The notes under the pieces are model-generated. The model saw only the letters and a program-made list of their open reading frames with translations. It had not been told where the DNA came from and made no database searches. From positions 1 to 11,179 of the forward strand of contig JANJXE010000057.1 in the NCBI GenBank assembly GCA_024709185.1: a stretch of DNA of 11,179 nt. The letters run 5' to 3'. A program made the translations under genes and the position numbers. Origin of the DNA: Paludibacter sp. Its GTDB lineage: Bacteria > Bacteroidota > Bacteroidia > Bacteroidales > Paludibacteraceae. Below, piece by piece: positions 1,720-10,997 of the stretch. Numbering within the stretch: position 1 is the first letter of the stretch; every line of letters starts with the position of its first letter.

Positions 1720-1752
1720 ACGTGTGCTTGAACACCACGTTAAAAAAACAAG
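1720..1752 (+). promoter_or_regulatory. preQ1-I riboswitch upstream of a queuosine-precursor transporter
   Basis: All parts of the small preQ1-I (class I) pseudoknot aptamer can be read. P1 is ACGTG (1720-1724) paired with CACGT (1736-1740), and the loop is 1725-1735. The tail at 1741-1748 is T followed by seven A. The tail end CAAG (1749-1752) is fully complementary to loop bases CTTG (1727-1730), forming the P2 pseudoknot. The loop ends in ACAC followed by C, as in the Bacillus subtilis queC aptamer. C1735 falls where that aptamer's preQ1-pairing cytosine lies. The P2 3' strand overlaps the weak AAGAG (1750-1754) before the ATG at 1758, and no terminator follows. Ligand binding would therefore most simply block ribosome access and shut off uptake when preQ1 is plentiful. 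The downstream gene type supports the call independently. Confidence 0.88.
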
Positions 1753-5193: not shown

Positions 5194-6591
5194 TTATTTG
5201 GTTTTATAACCAAACAACGCTTTCTCGCGGATTCGTTCAAACACAGGTGCAGGCAACATTGTACGAAGCTCTTCATCATTCCCCTCTTCGATATACTTTG
5301 TAATATCAGCTGTGTGAATTTTTAAATTTTGAATGGATGTGCTTTTCAACACCAGAATTTTAGAAGAAGATTGGAGATACTGCCACATCAGACGAACAGG
5401 CATGTCGAACAATTCATCATCGGGATAGAGTATTCCACCATCTGCATCCAGTGCCGGATACAGGTAGATTTTCACATTTTTCTGGAATAGCGCGCCCATG
5501 GCCTCCAGTAAGCCACCACGCAAGTCATCGTACTGATTTTCGTCCATAATACGCATAAAAGTGGGCAAACCCACCACCATGCGCAGTTTAATCAGCTTAA
5601 ATTGACGGAAATACTTCACCAGCTCGTAATACCGCTGAAAGCGCGACACCATAACGCTTTGCCCCATCAGGTTAAGCAATTCAACACGGTGCAGGAAATC
5701 TTTTTCGTTGAGTTGTTCATCCTGCATCAGGTAGTTGAGCGATATTTCGCAAAATGCCAGAGTGTTATCGGGTCGATAGTCCTCATCCCGTTTAAAAATA
5801 TCCAGACTATCTTCAACGAATTCCATACCCAGCTTATTGATGGGTCGGAAATAACCACGTATCAACAGCACGTTTTTTTTATACAGCAAATCGCCAGGTT
5901 GCTGCATCGCACCAGTGGCATCGAACATGATTGCAGGCGTCATCGAATGACTCACCAGCATCAGGTTCAGCAGTCGGTTATCAACCCAATGCATATCAGG
6001 CCCTTCGGTATAGATATAATCCACCTCCACACGGTCGGTATCGAGGTTATCGAGCATCCCCAGCAGAATCTTACGGGGATCATCCAGCAGAAAAAGTCCC
6101 CCATAAATCAGATTAACCCCAAGGGTACCCAGGGTATATTGCTGGAGTAAGGTATCGTTTTCGCGGAGCTTAACATGAAGAAAAATCAGATTGGGATGAT
6201 AGCGGTCAGAACCTTCCACAGCAATTCCCAGCCAACCATTACCCTGATTTGTTTTTGTATAATTGAGCACCTCAACTGTATTGGCAAAGGCAAAGAAGTG
6301 TTGCGGATTTTTCCCGTCGAGAATTGTAATCAGTTCGTTGTACTCAGATAGCACCATTTTGCGAAGTCGTTCTTCGGCCACATAGCGCGATGGTTGACCG
6401 TCGTTGTAAAAATGATCGCTGAAAAGCTTGTCATAGGCCGATATCGACTTGGCCACCGTATTGGATGCTCCGCCGGCCTGAAACAAATGACGGGCAGTTT
6501 CCTGCCCCCCACCGATTTCGGCAATTGTGCCGTAATATTGCGATTCAATGTTGATACGAACCGATTTCTCTTTTGTACTGATTGTTTTCAC
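5194..6591 (-). CDS. Conserved 465-residue protein of unknown function
   Basis: No characterised domain is recognised. The protein appears cytosolic, with no signal peptide or membrane segment. It has a glycine-rich N-terminal block at residues 21-54 (GTIAEIGGGQE, then FQAGGASNTVAKSISAYD), a central LGVNLIYGG motif (157-165), and a C-terminal block around MVVGLPTFMRIMDE and YDDLRGGLLEAMG. From memory, this pattern recurs in a family spread over Bacteroidota, cyanobacteria and proteobacteria that has no demonstrated function. It is sometimes labelled 'nicotinate-nucleotide adenylyltransferase' or 'TonB-dependent receptor', neither of which fits what is seen here. The start is a GTG at 6591: the frame upstream closes at a TGA 18 bases earlier, and no ATG lies near the conserved N-terminal block. 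It is the last gene of the leftward run, 58 bases after a GT4 gene, so it may be co-transcribed with the glycan genes, but a functional tie is unproven. Confidence 0.75.
   Translation of the reverse strand: MKTISTKEKSVRINIESQYYGTIAEIGGGQETARHLFQAGGASNTVAKSISAYDKLFSDHFYNDGQPSRYVAEERLRKMVLSEYNELITILDGKNPQHFFAFANTVEVLNYTKTNQGNGWLGIAVEGSDRYHPNLIFLHVKLRENDTLLQQYTLGTLGVNLIYGGLFLLDDPRKILLGMLDNLDTDRVEVDYIYTEGPDMHWVDNRLLNLMLVSHSMTPAIMFDATGAMQQPGDLLYKKNVLLIRGYFRPINKLGMEFVEDSLDIFKRDEDYRPDNTLAFCEISLNYLMQDEQLNEKDFLHRVELLNLMGQSVMVSRFQRYYELVKYFRQFKLIKLRMVVGLPTFMRIMDENQYDDLRGGLLEAMGALFQKNVKIYLYPALDADGGILYPDDELFDMPVRLMWQYLQSSSKILVLKSTSIQNLKIHTADITKYIEEGNDEELRTMLPAPVFERIREKALFGYKTK
5197..5214 (-). terminator. 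Possible weak hairpin terminator at the convergent gene ends
   Basis: TTTGGTT (5197-5203) and AACCAAA (5208-5214) form a 7-bp stem with a TTAT loop. It overlaps the last codons of the leftward 465-residue gene. Read on the minus strand, the hairpin is followed by ATAAGTTTGTTTATTC, which is T-rich but has no clean U-run. The stem is AT-rich and therefore weak. It could end the leftward operon before it runs into the convergent peptidase gene, but chance is not excluded. Confidence 0.3.
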
Positions 6592-6649
6592 AGGCTTACA
6601 CTTTATTCAGGTGACATCCTTATTAATAAAGAAAAACCATCATATTAAC

Positions 6650-7858
6650 TTACTGTTCAGAATCATCGCCTTTGAGCGTTTTGAGGATTTGTTTGTACGC
6701 CACGGTTACCGAATAGTTGGTATGCAATAACTGCTTGCCGTTTTTACCCATTGATGCGCGTAATTCCCGGGAGGAAATCAATTTTAGAGCTGCCTGGTAT
6801 AAACCTTCTTCGTCGCCCGAATCAAGCACATACCCTACCGACGCTTCGTTTAAGACTTCTTTCAGGTCATTACCCCGGTTAACGCAACCTAACACAGGTA
6901 GTTCGTAGGCCATATACCCAAATATTTTTGCCGGAAAATTATGGGTTTTATGATTAGGATGTAAACTGAACAATCCAATATCAAACTCACTCATCATGCT
7001 AAAGTAACTTTTCTGATCCACTGGTGGGAGCAGGGTAAGATTAGTTAGTTGGTGATTGACCTTTTCATGTTTCACCAATTCAAACTCATCCCCTTTTCCT
7101 ACAAACAGGAAATGAACATCAGGATTATTTTTAAAACGAATCGCCAGATTAACCATATAAATCATGTGTTGGGCATGACCAATATTCCCTCCGAAGAAGA
7201 AAACAATCTTGTTTTCCAGTCCCAACTTTGATCGATAGCTCACATCAGACGCACGCGATGTAGGATGAACAGCCCAATTATAGAGCACTTCGAAATGCTC
7301 GGTGTGCTTGCGTGTACGTTTGAAAAAGGCAAGGTTGGAAGGAGACATTACCCCGATTCGGTTAGCCTGGCGGAAATTAATCCATTCAAAAAATTTGAAG
7401 TACCAGAACACCGGTGATTTCCGTTTCATCAGACCGCTATCGGCGGTCCACTGTGGAAAAACATCTCTGAGAATCAGATAGGTCCGGCAATTCCACATTT
7501 TTTTCAGTTTGCGTACCAGTACTCCCCAGAATATTGTTGGAGAATAGTACACTATACCATCGTAGTGTTTTTCGCGAAACAAGTCACGGGTTGCCGCCCA
7601 TGCAAGTTGCGAAATCATCGATTCGTTGATTGCCCGTCTTATCTTGCCAATGTTCTTTATTTCACCGCATTTAAAGAAAATGGTTTCGACGCCTGAGATA
7701 TTTTGTACCGATAGCCTTTCCTTTTGGAAAGGATTCGGAGTCAGTATACTCACTTCATGACCGTGAGCCATAAACTCAAGTGCCAGATCTTGCATCATCA
7801 GTGCGGCAGCCTTAATGCTATAAGGCAGATAATCGTCGACTATTAAAAGATACTTCAT
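6650..7858 (-). CDS. Glycosyltransferase family 4 (WbuB-like), glycan assembly
   Basis: This 402-residue GT4 enzyme would transfer a sugar from a nucleotide donor onto a growing lipid-linked repeat unit at the cytoplasmic face of the inner membrane. It has an N-terminal acceptor domain starting MKYLLIVDDYLP, and an LRDVFPQW block around Asp132 that is typical of the WbuB-like subgroup. The C-terminal Rossmann domain opens with FFGGNIGHAQ (221-230), and the donor-site region NFPAKIFGYMAYELPVLG runs from 307 to 324. The position that is glutamate in most GT4 EX7E motifs (FEYM) is Gly314 here, a variant I associate with this subgroup rather than with inactivation. Donor and acceptor cannot be told from sequence. 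It lies 15 bases downstream of another GT4 gene, with no promoter box noticed between, so it is very probably in the same operon. Confidence 0.85.
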   Translation of the reverse strand: MKYLLIVDDYLPYSIKAAALMMQDLALEFMAHGHEVSILTPNPFQKERLSVQNISGVETIFFKCGEIKNIGKIRRAINESMISQLAWAATRDLFREKHYDGIVYYSPTIFWGVLVRKLKKMWNCRTYLILRDVFPQWTADSGLMKRKSPVFWYFKFFEWINFRQANRIGVMSPSNLAFFKRTRKHTEHFEVLYNWAVHPTSRASDVSYRSKLGLENKIVFFFGGNIGHAQHMIYMVNLAIRFKNNPDVHFLFVGKGDEFELVKHEKVNHQLTNLTLLPPVDQKSYFSMMSEFDIGLFSLHPNHKTHNFPAKIFGYMAYELPVLGCVNRGNDLKEVLNEASVGYVLDSGDEEGLYQAALKLISSRELRASMGKNGKQLLHTNYSVTVAYKQILKTLKGDDSEQ

Positions 7859-7873
7859 ACTTTTTTTGTAGAA

Positions 7874-9034
7874 TTAATTGCGCTGTTTTAACTGAAAATT
7901 TTCATAGATTTCATATAAGAAACGAAAGGTTTGCTGCGCTGTGGAACTCCAGTCATACTTTTCAGAAGCCTGATAGCTCAGGGCTGCTTTCTCTTCCCTT
8001 TGTTTGGGATGAAGAAGCATTTCTTCTAATGCAGTAGCAATGGAGTCTGCATTACGGGGGTTAAAATAGTAGGCATGATCACCTACGAATTCGGGCATGG
8101 GAGCCCGATCGCTGCATACAATCGGCAATCCGGCCGACATTGCCTCGATGAGGATATTAGGCATATTCTCACATTCAGATGCAAAGACAAACGCATCGGC
8201 ACTTTGATACAATTCATGTACCATCTCGTAATTGATCCAATTGTGCTCTTTTATAAATGTACGCTCGGGATCAACCGCCTGAATTGTCTTTGTTAGAATC
8301 TGTCCGGCAGGTTTGAAAATTACGGATCCGACAAGATGTAACTCCAACGGATATCCATTCTTTCTGAGCTGAGCTACTGCTTCAACAACCTTCCATTGTT
8401 TTTTATAACTGTGAACGGTTGAAACATACAATAACCGAAAAGGCTGATCAGTGGAATACGATGTCAGGGGTAGTTGTGGTTTAACCTTTCTGCGAAATCG
8501 CGATGAAATTCCATGATGAATTAGTGCTTTTCGTTGAACACTAATATTCAGCTGATTGCAAACAACCGACATTGCATGGTTGGACAAAAAAATAATCCCG
8601 TCGGCATGCTTAAAACAAACACGTTGTTTCTCAAAATTGAGCCACATTCGGAGTGTCTCTCGAACTTGTCCAAAATCTTTCCATAAATGTCGATCGTACA
8701 GAAGCATATTTTGCGACATTCCAACCAATGGGCGTAGTTTCCCTGTATAATCGCCGGTAATTGAAAAGAGAAGATCACATTTATATGCAGCTATACATCT
8801 ATCGTACTTACTCAATTGAAAACCAATCCTGGCAACCAATCCTCCGTTTAACTCCGGAAATGTTACTTTTTGCAAAACAGGATGATCCATCAACTGGTCA
8901 AGCACAGCCTTCGATGAAAATACAACCACGGCAGAAATTTCAGGCATACGATCATCGATACAATTGATCAATTCCTTTAAATGAGTAGTGCCACCACCCA
9001 ATCCGAGATTGGAGGCATCAATTGCGAGTCTCAT
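7874..9034 (-). CDS. Glycosyltransferase family 4 (GT-B), glycan assembly
   Basis: This 386-residue GT-B enzyme has the N-terminal glycine-rich acceptor loop (GLGGGTTHLKEL, 11-22). The linker into the C-terminal Rossmann domain reads LLYVSTVHSYKKQW, with His208 in it. An intact donor-binding EX7E motif is present at Glu289-Glu297 (ECENMPNILIEAM). Retaining GT4 enzymes of this kind add mannose, galactose, glucose or related sugars to polysaccharide repeat units; the exact sugar cannot be inferred. The start codon at 9034 lies 17 bases inside the end of the preceding GT2 gene, which suggests translational coupling. The ATG has no good Shine-Dalgarno sequence, as is common in this phylum. Confidence 0.9.
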   Translation of the reverse strand: MRLAIDASNLGLGGGTTHLKELINCIDDRMPEISAVVVFSSKAVLDQLMDHPVLQKVTFPELNGGLVARIGFQLSKYDRCIAAYKCDLLFSITGDYTGKLRPLVGMSQNMLLYDRHLWKDFGQVRETLRMWLNFEKQRVCFKHADGIIFLSNHAMSVVCNQLNISVQRKALIHHGISSRFRRKVKPQLPLTSYSTDQPFRLLYVSTVHSYKKQWKVVEAVAQLRKNGYPLELHLVGSVIFKPAGQILTKTIQAVDPERTFIKEHNWINYEMVHELYQSADAFVFASECENMPNILIEAMSAGLPIVCSDRAPMPEFVGDHAYYFNPRNADSIATALEEMLLHPKQREEKAALSYQASEKYDWSSTAQQTFRFLYEIYENFQLKQRN

Positions 9035-9899
9035 ACACCACTTTCAGATTTTTTTCGACCACACTCAACTGTTCGTTACGCTGGAAAAGTTTAGCCACAA
9101 AACGCTTTATTCGTAGTTCAGCCACAAGTCTGCGAATAATCCGGTTGTAATTCAACCCGTATTTTTTACAATAATATTGCATCGATTGCAGCAAAACAGA
9201 ATACGCCTGGGGTGAAAATCCAATACGATTATCAATTTTATGATAATAACTTATGCTTTTGTCAAACATCAAACTATATCCTGCCTTACGCAATCGTCTG
9301 GAAATATCAGCTTCCTCAAGGTAGAGGAAAATAGACTCATCAAACCCCCCGGCAGAGATAAACTTTTGCTTATCGACAACCATAAATGCCCCTGACAAAT
9401 AGAAAAAAGATGGAATGAATACCTTTACACGGTTGCTAAGCCGTTCGATAAGGGTTTGCAACAACGGAATCCGCAGCTCTGGAAAAAGATAATAACTGAT
9501 ATTTCGGTTTCCTATCTGGCTGAAACCCAATAATGCCAGTTTTGGTTTACGGTCGAACCATTCGAGCGCCTTTTTAAACATCGGCTCTGTAATTCGTACA
9601 TCCGGATTCATAATCAACACATGATCTCCGGTTGCATTTGCTATGCCAATATTGTTTCCTGCTCCATAGCCCATATTATGGTTATTGATGATAATTCTGA
9701 TTGAATCGGCATACTGTTTTCGAAGGTACGCTTCCATCGCTTCAGCTTCCTGCAAAGGACTGTTTTCAACTACAATCACTTCCAATTCCTCAGGGTTCAG
9801 ATCGTTGTACCGGAACACTGAGTCGATGCATTCTGCAATCAAATCGCCCGAAAGGTATGTTACAATTATAACTGATAGTTTCATTGAACCCTCATTCAT
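9018..9899 (-). CDS. Glycosyltransferase family 2 (GT-A, rhamnosyltransferase-like)
   Basis: This inverting GT2 enzyme of 293 residues (288 from the second ATG) has a single GT-A domain beginning KLSVIIVTY. The nucleotide-binding block NNHNMGYGAGNNIGIANATGD is followed by the metal-binding NPD motif at residues 98-100. A GGFDESIFLYLEEADISRR segment carries the acidic Glu195/Glu196/Asp198 expected to include the catalytic base. This pattern is common in rhamnosyl- and similar transferases of O-antigen and capsule loci. Two starts are possible: the ATG at 9899 is three bases after the upstream stop, while the ATG at 9884 has GAGG five bases upstream and begins exactly at the conserved MKLSVIIVTY. 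I lean towards 9884 biologically but give the longer frame. The 3' end overlaps the next GT4 gene by 17 bases. The sugar is unknown. Confidence 0.9.
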   Translation of the reverse strand: MNEGSMKLSVIIVTYLSGDLIAECIDSVFRYNDLNPEELEVIVVENSPLQEAEAMEAYLRKQYADSIRIIINNHNMGYGAGNNIGIANATGDHVLIMNPDVRITEPMFKKALEWFDRKPKLALLGFSQIGNRNISYYLFPELRIPLLQTLIERLSNRVKVFIPSFFYLSGAFMVVDKQKFISAGGFDESIFLYLEEADISRRLRKAGYSLMFDKSISYYHKIDNRIGFSPQAYSVLLQSMQYYCKKYGLNYNRIIRRLVAELRIKRFVAKLFQRNEQLSVVEKNLKVVYETRN

Positions 9900-9902
9900 T
9901 AT

Positions 9903-10997
9903 TTATCGAAGAAAATATTTGACAATCAAATTGGAACGTAACATATCACCTACAATATTTGATATATTACTACTGGTAATCATCATTGAAAGCACATAAT
10001 TATAGAAGAAAAAACCGGCATAGTAAAGTCCACCAATCAGGGCAAGCATTGCATTTTGACGGCGTTCGTTGAACTGCGAAAGGTAAAATAACATCAACAA
10101 CTGAAATATGATAGACGGTGTAACAAAGCGTTGTCCGATCACCTGTCGTTCCAGTGCCACGCCTACAAACATAATTGAAATTACCACAAAGCGATACAGA
10201 TATTGAAATTTCTTATCATCCAGTAAAGCCGGAAATTCGGCAATCTTTTCCCTTGCGTAGAAATTCACAAGCAGAAAGCCTATAATTACCGGCAGAAAAG
10301 AAAACAACCCGCCTAAAAGAGTGGATTCAAACGTATCGGATGTAATGTAGGTAAGGAACACCAGATTGCCGGTATCTTCAGTAAGAAAGACTGTGGATAA
10401 AAGATAGAAGATAACCATTGCAATCAACAACAGGAAGAGTCGTTTTATCAATGTTTCCACTTTTACAAAAAAGAAATACATAAACGGGAGAAAAAACAAC
10501 AGTGTGATGTGGTTTAACACTGCAAAGACCAGCGTTACCAGCGCCAGTTTCCTCTTCGACTCAACAAACAGCCAATAAAAGGCCAGGCTCATGGCATAAT
10601 AGCCCAGGAAGAAACGTATCTGAGTGGTATAAAAGATATAAACAATTCCCAGATACAGAACCATTATCAGGTAGGTTTGATGGGTAAACCTGCTGATGAG
10701 GTAAAGCAGCATAATGGTATACAAAGTAATAAAGGAAATATGTACAAACTGATATCCCCATCCTGCCGGTAAAACATTTTTAACAAAGAAATTAAAAAAC
10801 ACATCCCTTCCCAGGTCTTCATCAATCCACGACTGGTACCCTCCCCAGTCGGGAGTGTAAGTTACCAACGCCGAGACTATAAAAATTAAAATGAACGTGA
10901 GAACGTTAGCCACTTTATTATTGCCAATAGCAATCCGGGAAAGATTACTGAATAACATCCCGATGATTATCAACAAAATAAAAAGTATAATTCCCAT
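9903..10997 (-). CDS. EpsG/Wzy-like polysaccharide polymerase (polytopic membrane protein)
   Basis: This 364-residue, strongly hydrophobic protein has about ten or more predicted membrane segments. Between the first two segments and a further one is an external-looking loop with TPDWGGYQSW (Asp50, Tyr54), similar to the Asp-Tyr motif of EpsG-family proteins. A TQIRFFLGYY segment (Arg128) and LNHITLLFFLP (His163) complete the pattern I associate with EpsG/Wzy polymerases, which join undecaprenyl-linked repeat units on the periplasmic side. Family members are very divergent, so the assignment comes from topology, these few polar residues and the flanking glycosyltransferase genes. An O-antigen ligase or a flippase is less likely, because Wzx flippases are longer and lack the Asp-Tyr loop. 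The ATG directly follows the upstream stop (TAA at 10998-11000), so the two are probably translationally coupled. Confidence 0.75.
   Translation of the reverse strand: MGIILFILLIIIGMLFSNLSRIAIGNNKVANVLTFILIFIVSALVTYTPDWGGYQSWIDEDLGRDVFFNFFVKNVLPAGWGYQFVHISFITLYTIMLLYLISRFTHQTYLIMVLYLGIVYIFYTTQIRFFLGYYAMSLAFYWLFVESKRKLALVTLVFAVLNHITLLFFLPFMYFFFVKVETLIKRLFLLLIAMVIFYLLSTVFLTEDTGNLVFLTYITSDTFESTLLGGLFSFLPVIIGFLLVNFYAREKIAEFPALLDDKKFQYLYRFVVISIMFVGVALERQVIGQRFVTPSIIFQLLMLFYLSQFNERRQNAMLALIGGLYYAGFFFYNYVLSMMITSSNISNIVGDMLRSNLIVKYFLR

Follow-up and report, generated by a model that had tools for sequence, protein, structure and literature searches.

Class I preQ1 riboswitches are divided by the dinucleotide before the 3' strand of P1, which is AC in type II and UC in type I (PMC11625349). 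According to the same review, type II is spread over phyla much as type I is, with Bacteroidota among them, and translational riboswitches are predicted in organisms without Shine-Dalgarno (SD) use, where they are hard to detect. Bacteroidia ribosomes are described as not reading the SD sequence and as favouring A at −3, −6, −12, and −13 together with little structure (PMC9976891). In a survey of Rfam families, queuosine riboswitches were mostly limited to Firmicutes (PMC3766115), and the main text of a Bacteroides thetaiotaomicron transcriptome study that used Rfam names TPP riboswitches and leaves preQ1 unmentioned (PMC7366714). Both statements would fit the gap in Rfam detection described below, which was observed in loci of other species. 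Among the literature matches listed, no published Bacteroidales yhhQ preQ1 riboswitch or SD-less platform of this kind was found. Type II elements in Bacteroidota are said to be covered by the 2014 work of McCown.

The window, by which we mean the whole 11,179-nt stretch of Paludibacter sp. DNA that was analysed, carries such an element in front of a yhhQ gene. There is good reason to regard it as a preQ1 riboswitch of class I, type II, through which abundant preQ1 lowers yhhQ expression by blocking SD-independent initiation. We infer ligand binding, the direction of control, and the translational level from what was observed, namely the structure, its covariation, the gene association, the start-codon spacing, no terminator-like site, and no SD enrichment near these genes.

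The pseudoknot pairs of the preQ1-I element at 1720–1752 can be read straight from the sequence, with all segments on the forward (+) strand. The 5' strand of P1 occupies 1720–1724 (A1720, C1721, G1722, T1723, G1724; conserved part 1721–1724) and is followed by L1 at 1725–1726 (T1725, G1726), the 5' strand of P2 at 1727–1730 (C1727, T1728, T1729, G1730, i.e., CUUG), L2 at 1731–1735 (A1731 to C1735), the 3' strand of P1 at 1736–1740 (C1736, A1737, C1738, G1739, T1740; conserved part 1736–1739), an A-rich L3 at 1741–1748 (T1741, then A1742 to A1748), and the 3' strand of P2, CAAG, at 1749–1752 (C1749, A1750, A1751, G1752). A1734 and C1735, directly before the 3' strand of P1, form the type II signature. 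Counted from the yhhQ start codon (ATG at 1758), A1745 and A1746 are −13 and −12, the 3' strand of P2 covers −9 to −6, and P2 ends 5 nt before the AUG. The first-pass annotation had written P1 as ACGTG/CACGT, P2 as CTTG/CAAG, an A-rich tail, and C1735, and every position agrees with our reading. The P1 conserved among relatives has four pairs, the fifth (A1720–T1740) being unpaired in 42 of 52 relatives.

T1725 and the A, C, and C at 1734–1736 do not vary across the 25 leaders that were aligned, of 35 distinct ones. The invariant positions are those that touch the ligand in solved class I aptamers, i.e., the U in L1, the AC before P1, and the A-rich L3 (PMC10622847). By analogy with that work, T1725 is expected to be the ligand-contacting uridine, and C1735, which adjoins the 3' strand of P1, is predicted to be the ligand-pairing cytosine. 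The conserved U in L1 and an A-rich L3 ending in A before P2 are present in the family, with two exceptions that have T before P2 (L231 and L232). The ordinary folding energy of the leader, computed without pseudoknots, is not unusual (z −0.99).

The pseudoknot is confirmed as real and conserved. Leaders were sampled with the YhhQ protein as anchor, without demanding the motif, and class- and order-wide samples were added. A structure-only rule, which fixes the sequence of neither stem, asks for four Watson-Crick pairs in P1, a T following it, a C preceding its 3' strand, an A-rich L3, and four P2 pairs of which no more than one is G-U. It was satisfied by 62 of the 77 leaders from the same YhhQ clade (at least 43.5% identity), comprising 34/41 in the genus and 28/36 outside; L232 is counted among the 62, but in a register that we judged not believable. 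By comparison, 60 shuffles gave a mean of 0.37/77, and 1 of 35 distant YhhQ leaders passed. The element is absent from seven clade leaders (L029, L030, L032, L033, L039, L040, L041), and eight others are by eye variants that break at least one part of the rule (L046, L048, L183, L185, L189, L221, L231, L233). An earlier YhhQ-anchored sample had the core in 43 of 54 fetched loci.

Several variant leaders show their own architecture. Upstream of yhhQ, L189 has a variant P1 (GGGAG/CUCCC) and, by eye, an insertion of about 60 nt, which may include a hairpin, separating P1 from the A-rich L3/CAAG. A subgroup (L044, L183, L185, L221, L229, L239) has the loop UAUUCYAGRACA and the tail CAGGA/CAAGAA, with P2 seemingly moved to UUCY/GGAA; in L183, L185, and L221 this P2 is not fully paired.

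A covariance model (A3/R2) built from 52 other loci, with the window left out, matched 1720–1750 at 41.3 bits and E 4.6e-8 (next best E 0.7), a value that is flattering and not a free-standing test, since the loci came from a scan whose pattern was drawn from the window's relatives and is fitted by the window too. At E 0.04 or lower, model R2 also matched 41 of the 54 loci sampled through YhhQ. The structure-only count of 62/77 is the fair test, independent of the pattern-picked model. A second riboswitch copy in the host was rejected: the only other match of model R1 in the host genome (L181, 21.8 bits, E 0.5) is a palindrome without the CUUG loop. This weak chance match (TTTACGTGCAA..TTGCACGTAAA, ~1498–1531 of L181) lies near small genes and is perhaps a toxin-antitoxin operator, which is a guess.

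The Rfam search proposed in the first pass did not return the element at the Rfam cut-off, an outcome that the first-pass annotation had named as refuting. In a search of 161 bases, RF00522 aligned sensibly over 1718–1757 but scored 13.9 bits (cut-off 39, E 1.4), and a search of the whole window gave no match. We read this miss as a limit of the model, because the cut-off was reached by none of 20 element-carrying loci, the window's own (L001) included. Five further carriers also stayed below it (best L094, 29.9 bits). Since RF00522 fails in carriers generally, it was not used to reject the element.

Covariation in orthologous leaders, which the first-pass annotation had pointed to as a check, was found for both P1 and P2. 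A genome-wide pattern scan with one genome per species yielded at least 119 loci, in which the P1 pair outside GUG/CAC, left free by the pattern, is C-G (75), A-U (33), G-C (9), U-G (1), or mismatched (1). The sole mismatch among the 119 matches listed belongs to L147 (Flavobacterium), which was rejected as spurious on this ground and for having no usable downstream ORF. Among 52 distinct sequences, the pair is kept in all 52 (C-G 34, A-U 16, G-C 1, U-G 1). Its covariation score and percentage paired exceed 500/500 shuffles and every slid register, a control that ignores relatedness, while two of the five covariation measures are not above shuffles, the observed value being reached in 493/500 shuffles for pairs changed on both sides and in 342/500 for further pair types. 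Additionally, the middle pair of P1 swaps from U-A to A-U, changing GUG/CAC to GAG/CUC in L042, L049, L184, L187, and L238. P2 changes from CUUG/CAAG to CUAG/CUAG (L042), UUCC/GGAA (L239), UUCU/GGAA with one G-U (L044, L229), and, by eye, AUUG/CAAU (L231, L232); only three of the four P2 pairs are kept by eye in L046, L221, and L233. As P2 is CUUG/CAAG in most leaders, its covariation comes from few lineages.

The gene downstream, yhhQ (1758–2441, +), encodes a 227-aa protein of the QPTR/COG1738 family (PF02592, TIGR00697) and is predicted to be a preQ1 importer. The product matches Vut_1 PF02592 at 159.1 bits (1.3e-46, cut-off 27.2) and the TIGR00697 'queuosine precursor transporter' at 113.8 bits (8.6e-33, cut-off 50.95), bearing out the earlier assignment of a queuosine-precursor (YhhQ-type) transporter directly downstream; against the preQ0/preQ1 equivalog PRK11212 it scores 58.2, below the cut-off of 252. 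An alternative GTG start at 1722 was ruled out, as relatives align at the ATG at 1758. Among the 119 matches listed in the pattern scan, a YhhQ relative starts at most 60 nt downstream in 104 (45 and 56 nt in L170 and L172), the element precedes queC in 8 and queT in 1, and 6 are without a usable downstream gene, giving queuosine genes in 113/119. Pfam confirmed two of the eight queC and the queT, and the six other queC were assigned by similarity. These 119 matches comprise 114 from Bacteroidota (L147 included), 2 from Mailhella, and 1 each from Coriobacteriaceae, Ruminiclostridium, and Fibrobacteres. The structure rule, the covariation of P1 and P2, and the same RNA before queC and queT uphold the first-pass view of a class I preQ1 aptamer with a complete pseudoknot. 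Since this RNA precedes yhhQ, queC, and queT, its ligand is very likely preQ1.

The two Mailhella loci (Desulfovibrionaceae; L148 at ~6550–6580 on the − strand, and L075) have a GC content of ~60% and the same riboswitch before yhhQ, with a gap of 2 nt between P2 and the AUG. In L148, queC-like and queF-like ORFs follow yhhQ by eye. The Mailhella copies suggest horizontal transfer of the operon together with its switch.

Upstream of the aptamer, a promoter-like match (TACTTTTG, 1679–1686, +) fits TAnnTTTG, which we take to be the Bacteroidetes −7 promoter element. TAnnTTTG occurs within 60 nt upstream of the aptamer in 79/111 relatives among the matches listed, compared with 2.8 expected from mononucleotide shuffles, and no sigma-70 pattern was found at 1560–2480. 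Between the two lies a predicted 5' hairpin, P0 (1696–1716, +), at the presumed 5' end of the mRNA just upstream of the aptamer; it appears accessory and is variable in sequence. Stems of at least 6 pairs ending within 4 nt of P1 occur in 76/111 relatives among the matches listed versus 27% of shuffles. P0 was ruled out as an essential part, as it is missing by eye in some relatives, e.g., L031 and L034. Downstream of yhhQ, a TATCTTTG box at 2456–2463 immediately precedes an S9 peptidase gene, so that yhhQ is probably transcribed on its own. Elsewhere in the window, 6–395 may encode the C-terminus of an outer-membrane receptor (no Pfam match) and is followed by a lipoprotein-like DUF5074 protein (475–1578), a pair that presumably resembles BtuB/BtuG-type vitamin B12 uptake pairs. 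At 5194–10997 (− strand) lies a polysaccharide-type cluster with an EpsG-like protein, one family 2 and two group 1 glycosyltransferases, and a 465-aa protein without a Pfam match.

Initiation is the likely target of control, since no terminator-like site was found at 1560–2480, which rules out attenuation by a terminator, and P2 ends 5 nt before the AUG. Among 577 gene starts from the fetched Bacteroidota loci, SD-like 4-mers occur in 6.8% versus 6.9% in a control stretch, and A stands at −12 and −13 in 56% and 54% versus 28% at −30. Among the matches listed, −12 and −13 fall inside L3 in 109/113 riboswitch leaders, P2 ends 1–6 nt before the AUG (last base −2 to −7) in 109/113, and SD-like 4-mers lie within 16 nt of the start in 12/113, including L094 and L166. 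In the window's own leader, T stands at −3 and G at −6 in place of the favoured A.

The phyla of the Coriobacteriaceae and Ruminiclostridium hosts generally use SDs. In L094 (Coriobacteriaceae) and L166 (Ruminiclostridium), P2 ends at −12 and −13, within AAGGAG, 8–9 nt from the AUG and ~7 nt further upstream. The same aptamer may thus be positioned to cover the signal recognised by the ribosome of its host, a suggestion drawn from two contrasting loci. SD-like motifs at neighbouring gene starts (2/3 in L094, 0/4 in L166) are too few to say. The Mailhella copies keep a short, Bacteroidales-like spacing though their neighbours are partly SD-like (3/8 in L148, 0/7 in L075), which the placement over the host signal leaves unexplained.

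Without ligand, P1 would be formed and the tail at 1741–1757 (A-rich L3, CAAG, and spacer) would be single-stranded, so that a Bacteroidia 30S subunit could read the unstructured A-rich stretch instead of an SD and start at the AUG at 1758. When preQ1 pairs with C1735, P2 would close (CUUG at 1727–1730 with CAAG at 1749–1752) and the L3 adenines would dock in the groove of P1. The ligand-bound pseudoknot would then cover about −6 to −17, A-12 and A-13 included, and block initiation. The feedback model of the first-pass annotation is plausible, but it calls for a different expression platform from the usual SD masking. We lean towards a large Bacteroidales type II branch that works without any SD, in which the L3 adenines would double as the initiation signal (A-12/A-13) and ligand docking would withdraw it, the aptamer sitting ~7 nt upstream, on a true SD, in SD-using hosts.

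The same aptamer might instead act before translation and alter the transcript level, with the pseudoknot, depending on ligand, either stabilising a pause of RNA polymerase in the short leader or changing the access of RNase to it. Pausing by the type II aptamer has been described in B. subtilis (PMC11625349) and needs no terminator, in keeping with the lack of one at 1560–2480, but we consider this unlikely here, because both the narrow 1–6 nt gap between P2 and the AUG in 109/113 leaders among the matches listed and the move of P2 onto AAGGAG in L094 and L166 point to initiation.

A role for preQ1 also agrees with the queuosine genes of the host and its genus. TGT, QueG, and QueA-family fragments were found in the host genome (G000), and a full-length QueA in its nearest near-complete relative (G034; ~99% complete, YhhQ 93% identical to that of the host). 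In both genomes, QueF was not found and QueC appeared only as weak QueC-like matches, one of which in G034 has 22.7 bits against a Pfam cut-off of 22 and covers only positions 1–117 of 210, in a 432-aa frame. As G000 is 82.65% complete, QueC and QueF may be missing from the assembly, and their absence there alone is weak evidence. QueH was not found in any of the five genomes searched. Lacking QueF and a convincing QueC, as G034 does likewise, the host probably lives on imported preQ1. Salvage of preQ1 through YhhQ with feedback by preQ1 would be the simplest reading of these gene contents.

Across the genus, both QueC and QueF are below the thresholds used in 16/34 riboswitch-bearing members (the window's host and 15 others), and in five riboswitch-bearing members QueF is seemingly present and QueC is not. 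QueC occurs in 13/34 riboswitch carriers versus 6/6 non-carriers (Fisher p 0.007), a correlation of riboswitch loss with de novo synthesis that we do not lean on because the genomes are related. The seven clade leaders without the element belong to the genus, and QueC gives a strong match in each of the six genomes that they come from.

It is quite improbable that the preferred ligand is a different 7-deazaguanine, preQ0 or queuine, owing to a differing transporter or salvage route. Such a preference has precedent in the E. coli YhhQ, which prefers preQ0 (PMC10622847), and in a Chlamydia QPTR that takes queuine and not preQ1 or preQ0 (PMC11130926), and the five genus members with QueF and without QueC would suit preQ0. 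However, the pocket has the positions expected of class I type II, preQ0 would lead nowhere in the 16 members with neither enzyme above thresholds, and QueA and QueG, unneeded for direct use of queuine, are kept. That the leader holds merely a conserved hairpin or protein site and no riboswitch is hardly credible: it does have a variable 5' hairpin and Rfam makes no call, but P2 covaries, the U, C, and A pocket positions are invariant, and three different queuosine genes lie downstream.

With more than 100 leaders in an SD-less phylum and 0/25 scanned carriers reaching the Rfam threshold, the family fits the prediction of translational riboswitches that escape detection. If the preferred reading of preQ1-controlled, SD-independent initiation is true, it would be an example from nature of the SD-less translational riboswitches predicted in the field. 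A 33-nt, well-understood, ligand-controlled block would offer a probe of how Bacteroidia choose start codons and would indicate preQ1 as the likely substrate for one branch of YhhQ. The leaders also provide a seed alignment, with which preQ1 annotation would reach further into a major gut phylum. The aptamer itself is ordinary; the interest is moderate and lies in turning a stated prediction of the field into an easy experiment.

Among the described systems, the type II riboswitches of Tte and Bsu (RF00522) share with the window family the H-type pseudoknot, AC before the 3' strand of P1, the L1 uridine, the A-rich L3, and a queuosine gene as target. In contrast, solved type II aptamers have a P1 of 5–6 bp, whereas the window family has a conserved P1 of 4 bp and scores far below the RF00522 cut-off. 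In Tte, SD nucleotides are buried, and Bsu acts on a terminator (PMC11625349), whereas the window family has no SD in its tail and places P2 1–6 nt from the AUG. The type III riboswitch of E. coli yhhQ is alike in target gene family, pseudoknot logic, and AC at the specificity base (PMC10622847, PMC11625349). It differs in its short pyrimidine-rich loop, UU motif, and AAGG SD within P2; the window has the loop UGCUUGAACAC and a P2 strand, CAAG, that is not an SD, and neither a short pyrimidine-rich loop nor AAGG in P2 was found in its loop and tail. Type I (Can) likewise uses pseudoknot-based translational control, and pseudoknot formation there matters more than SD hiding (PMC11625349). However, type I binds two ligands and has UC before the 3' strand of P1 and UU after its 5' strand, where the window has AC and UG. 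The TPP riboswitches of Bacteroides also work in SD-less hosts, and some are said to regulate translation, according to the title of a preprint cited in PMC7366714, but ligand and aptamer differ. Judged from its sequence by the published rule, the window element is a class I type II preQ1 riboswitch, whose aptamer belongs to a known class and whose SD-less platform is the variant.
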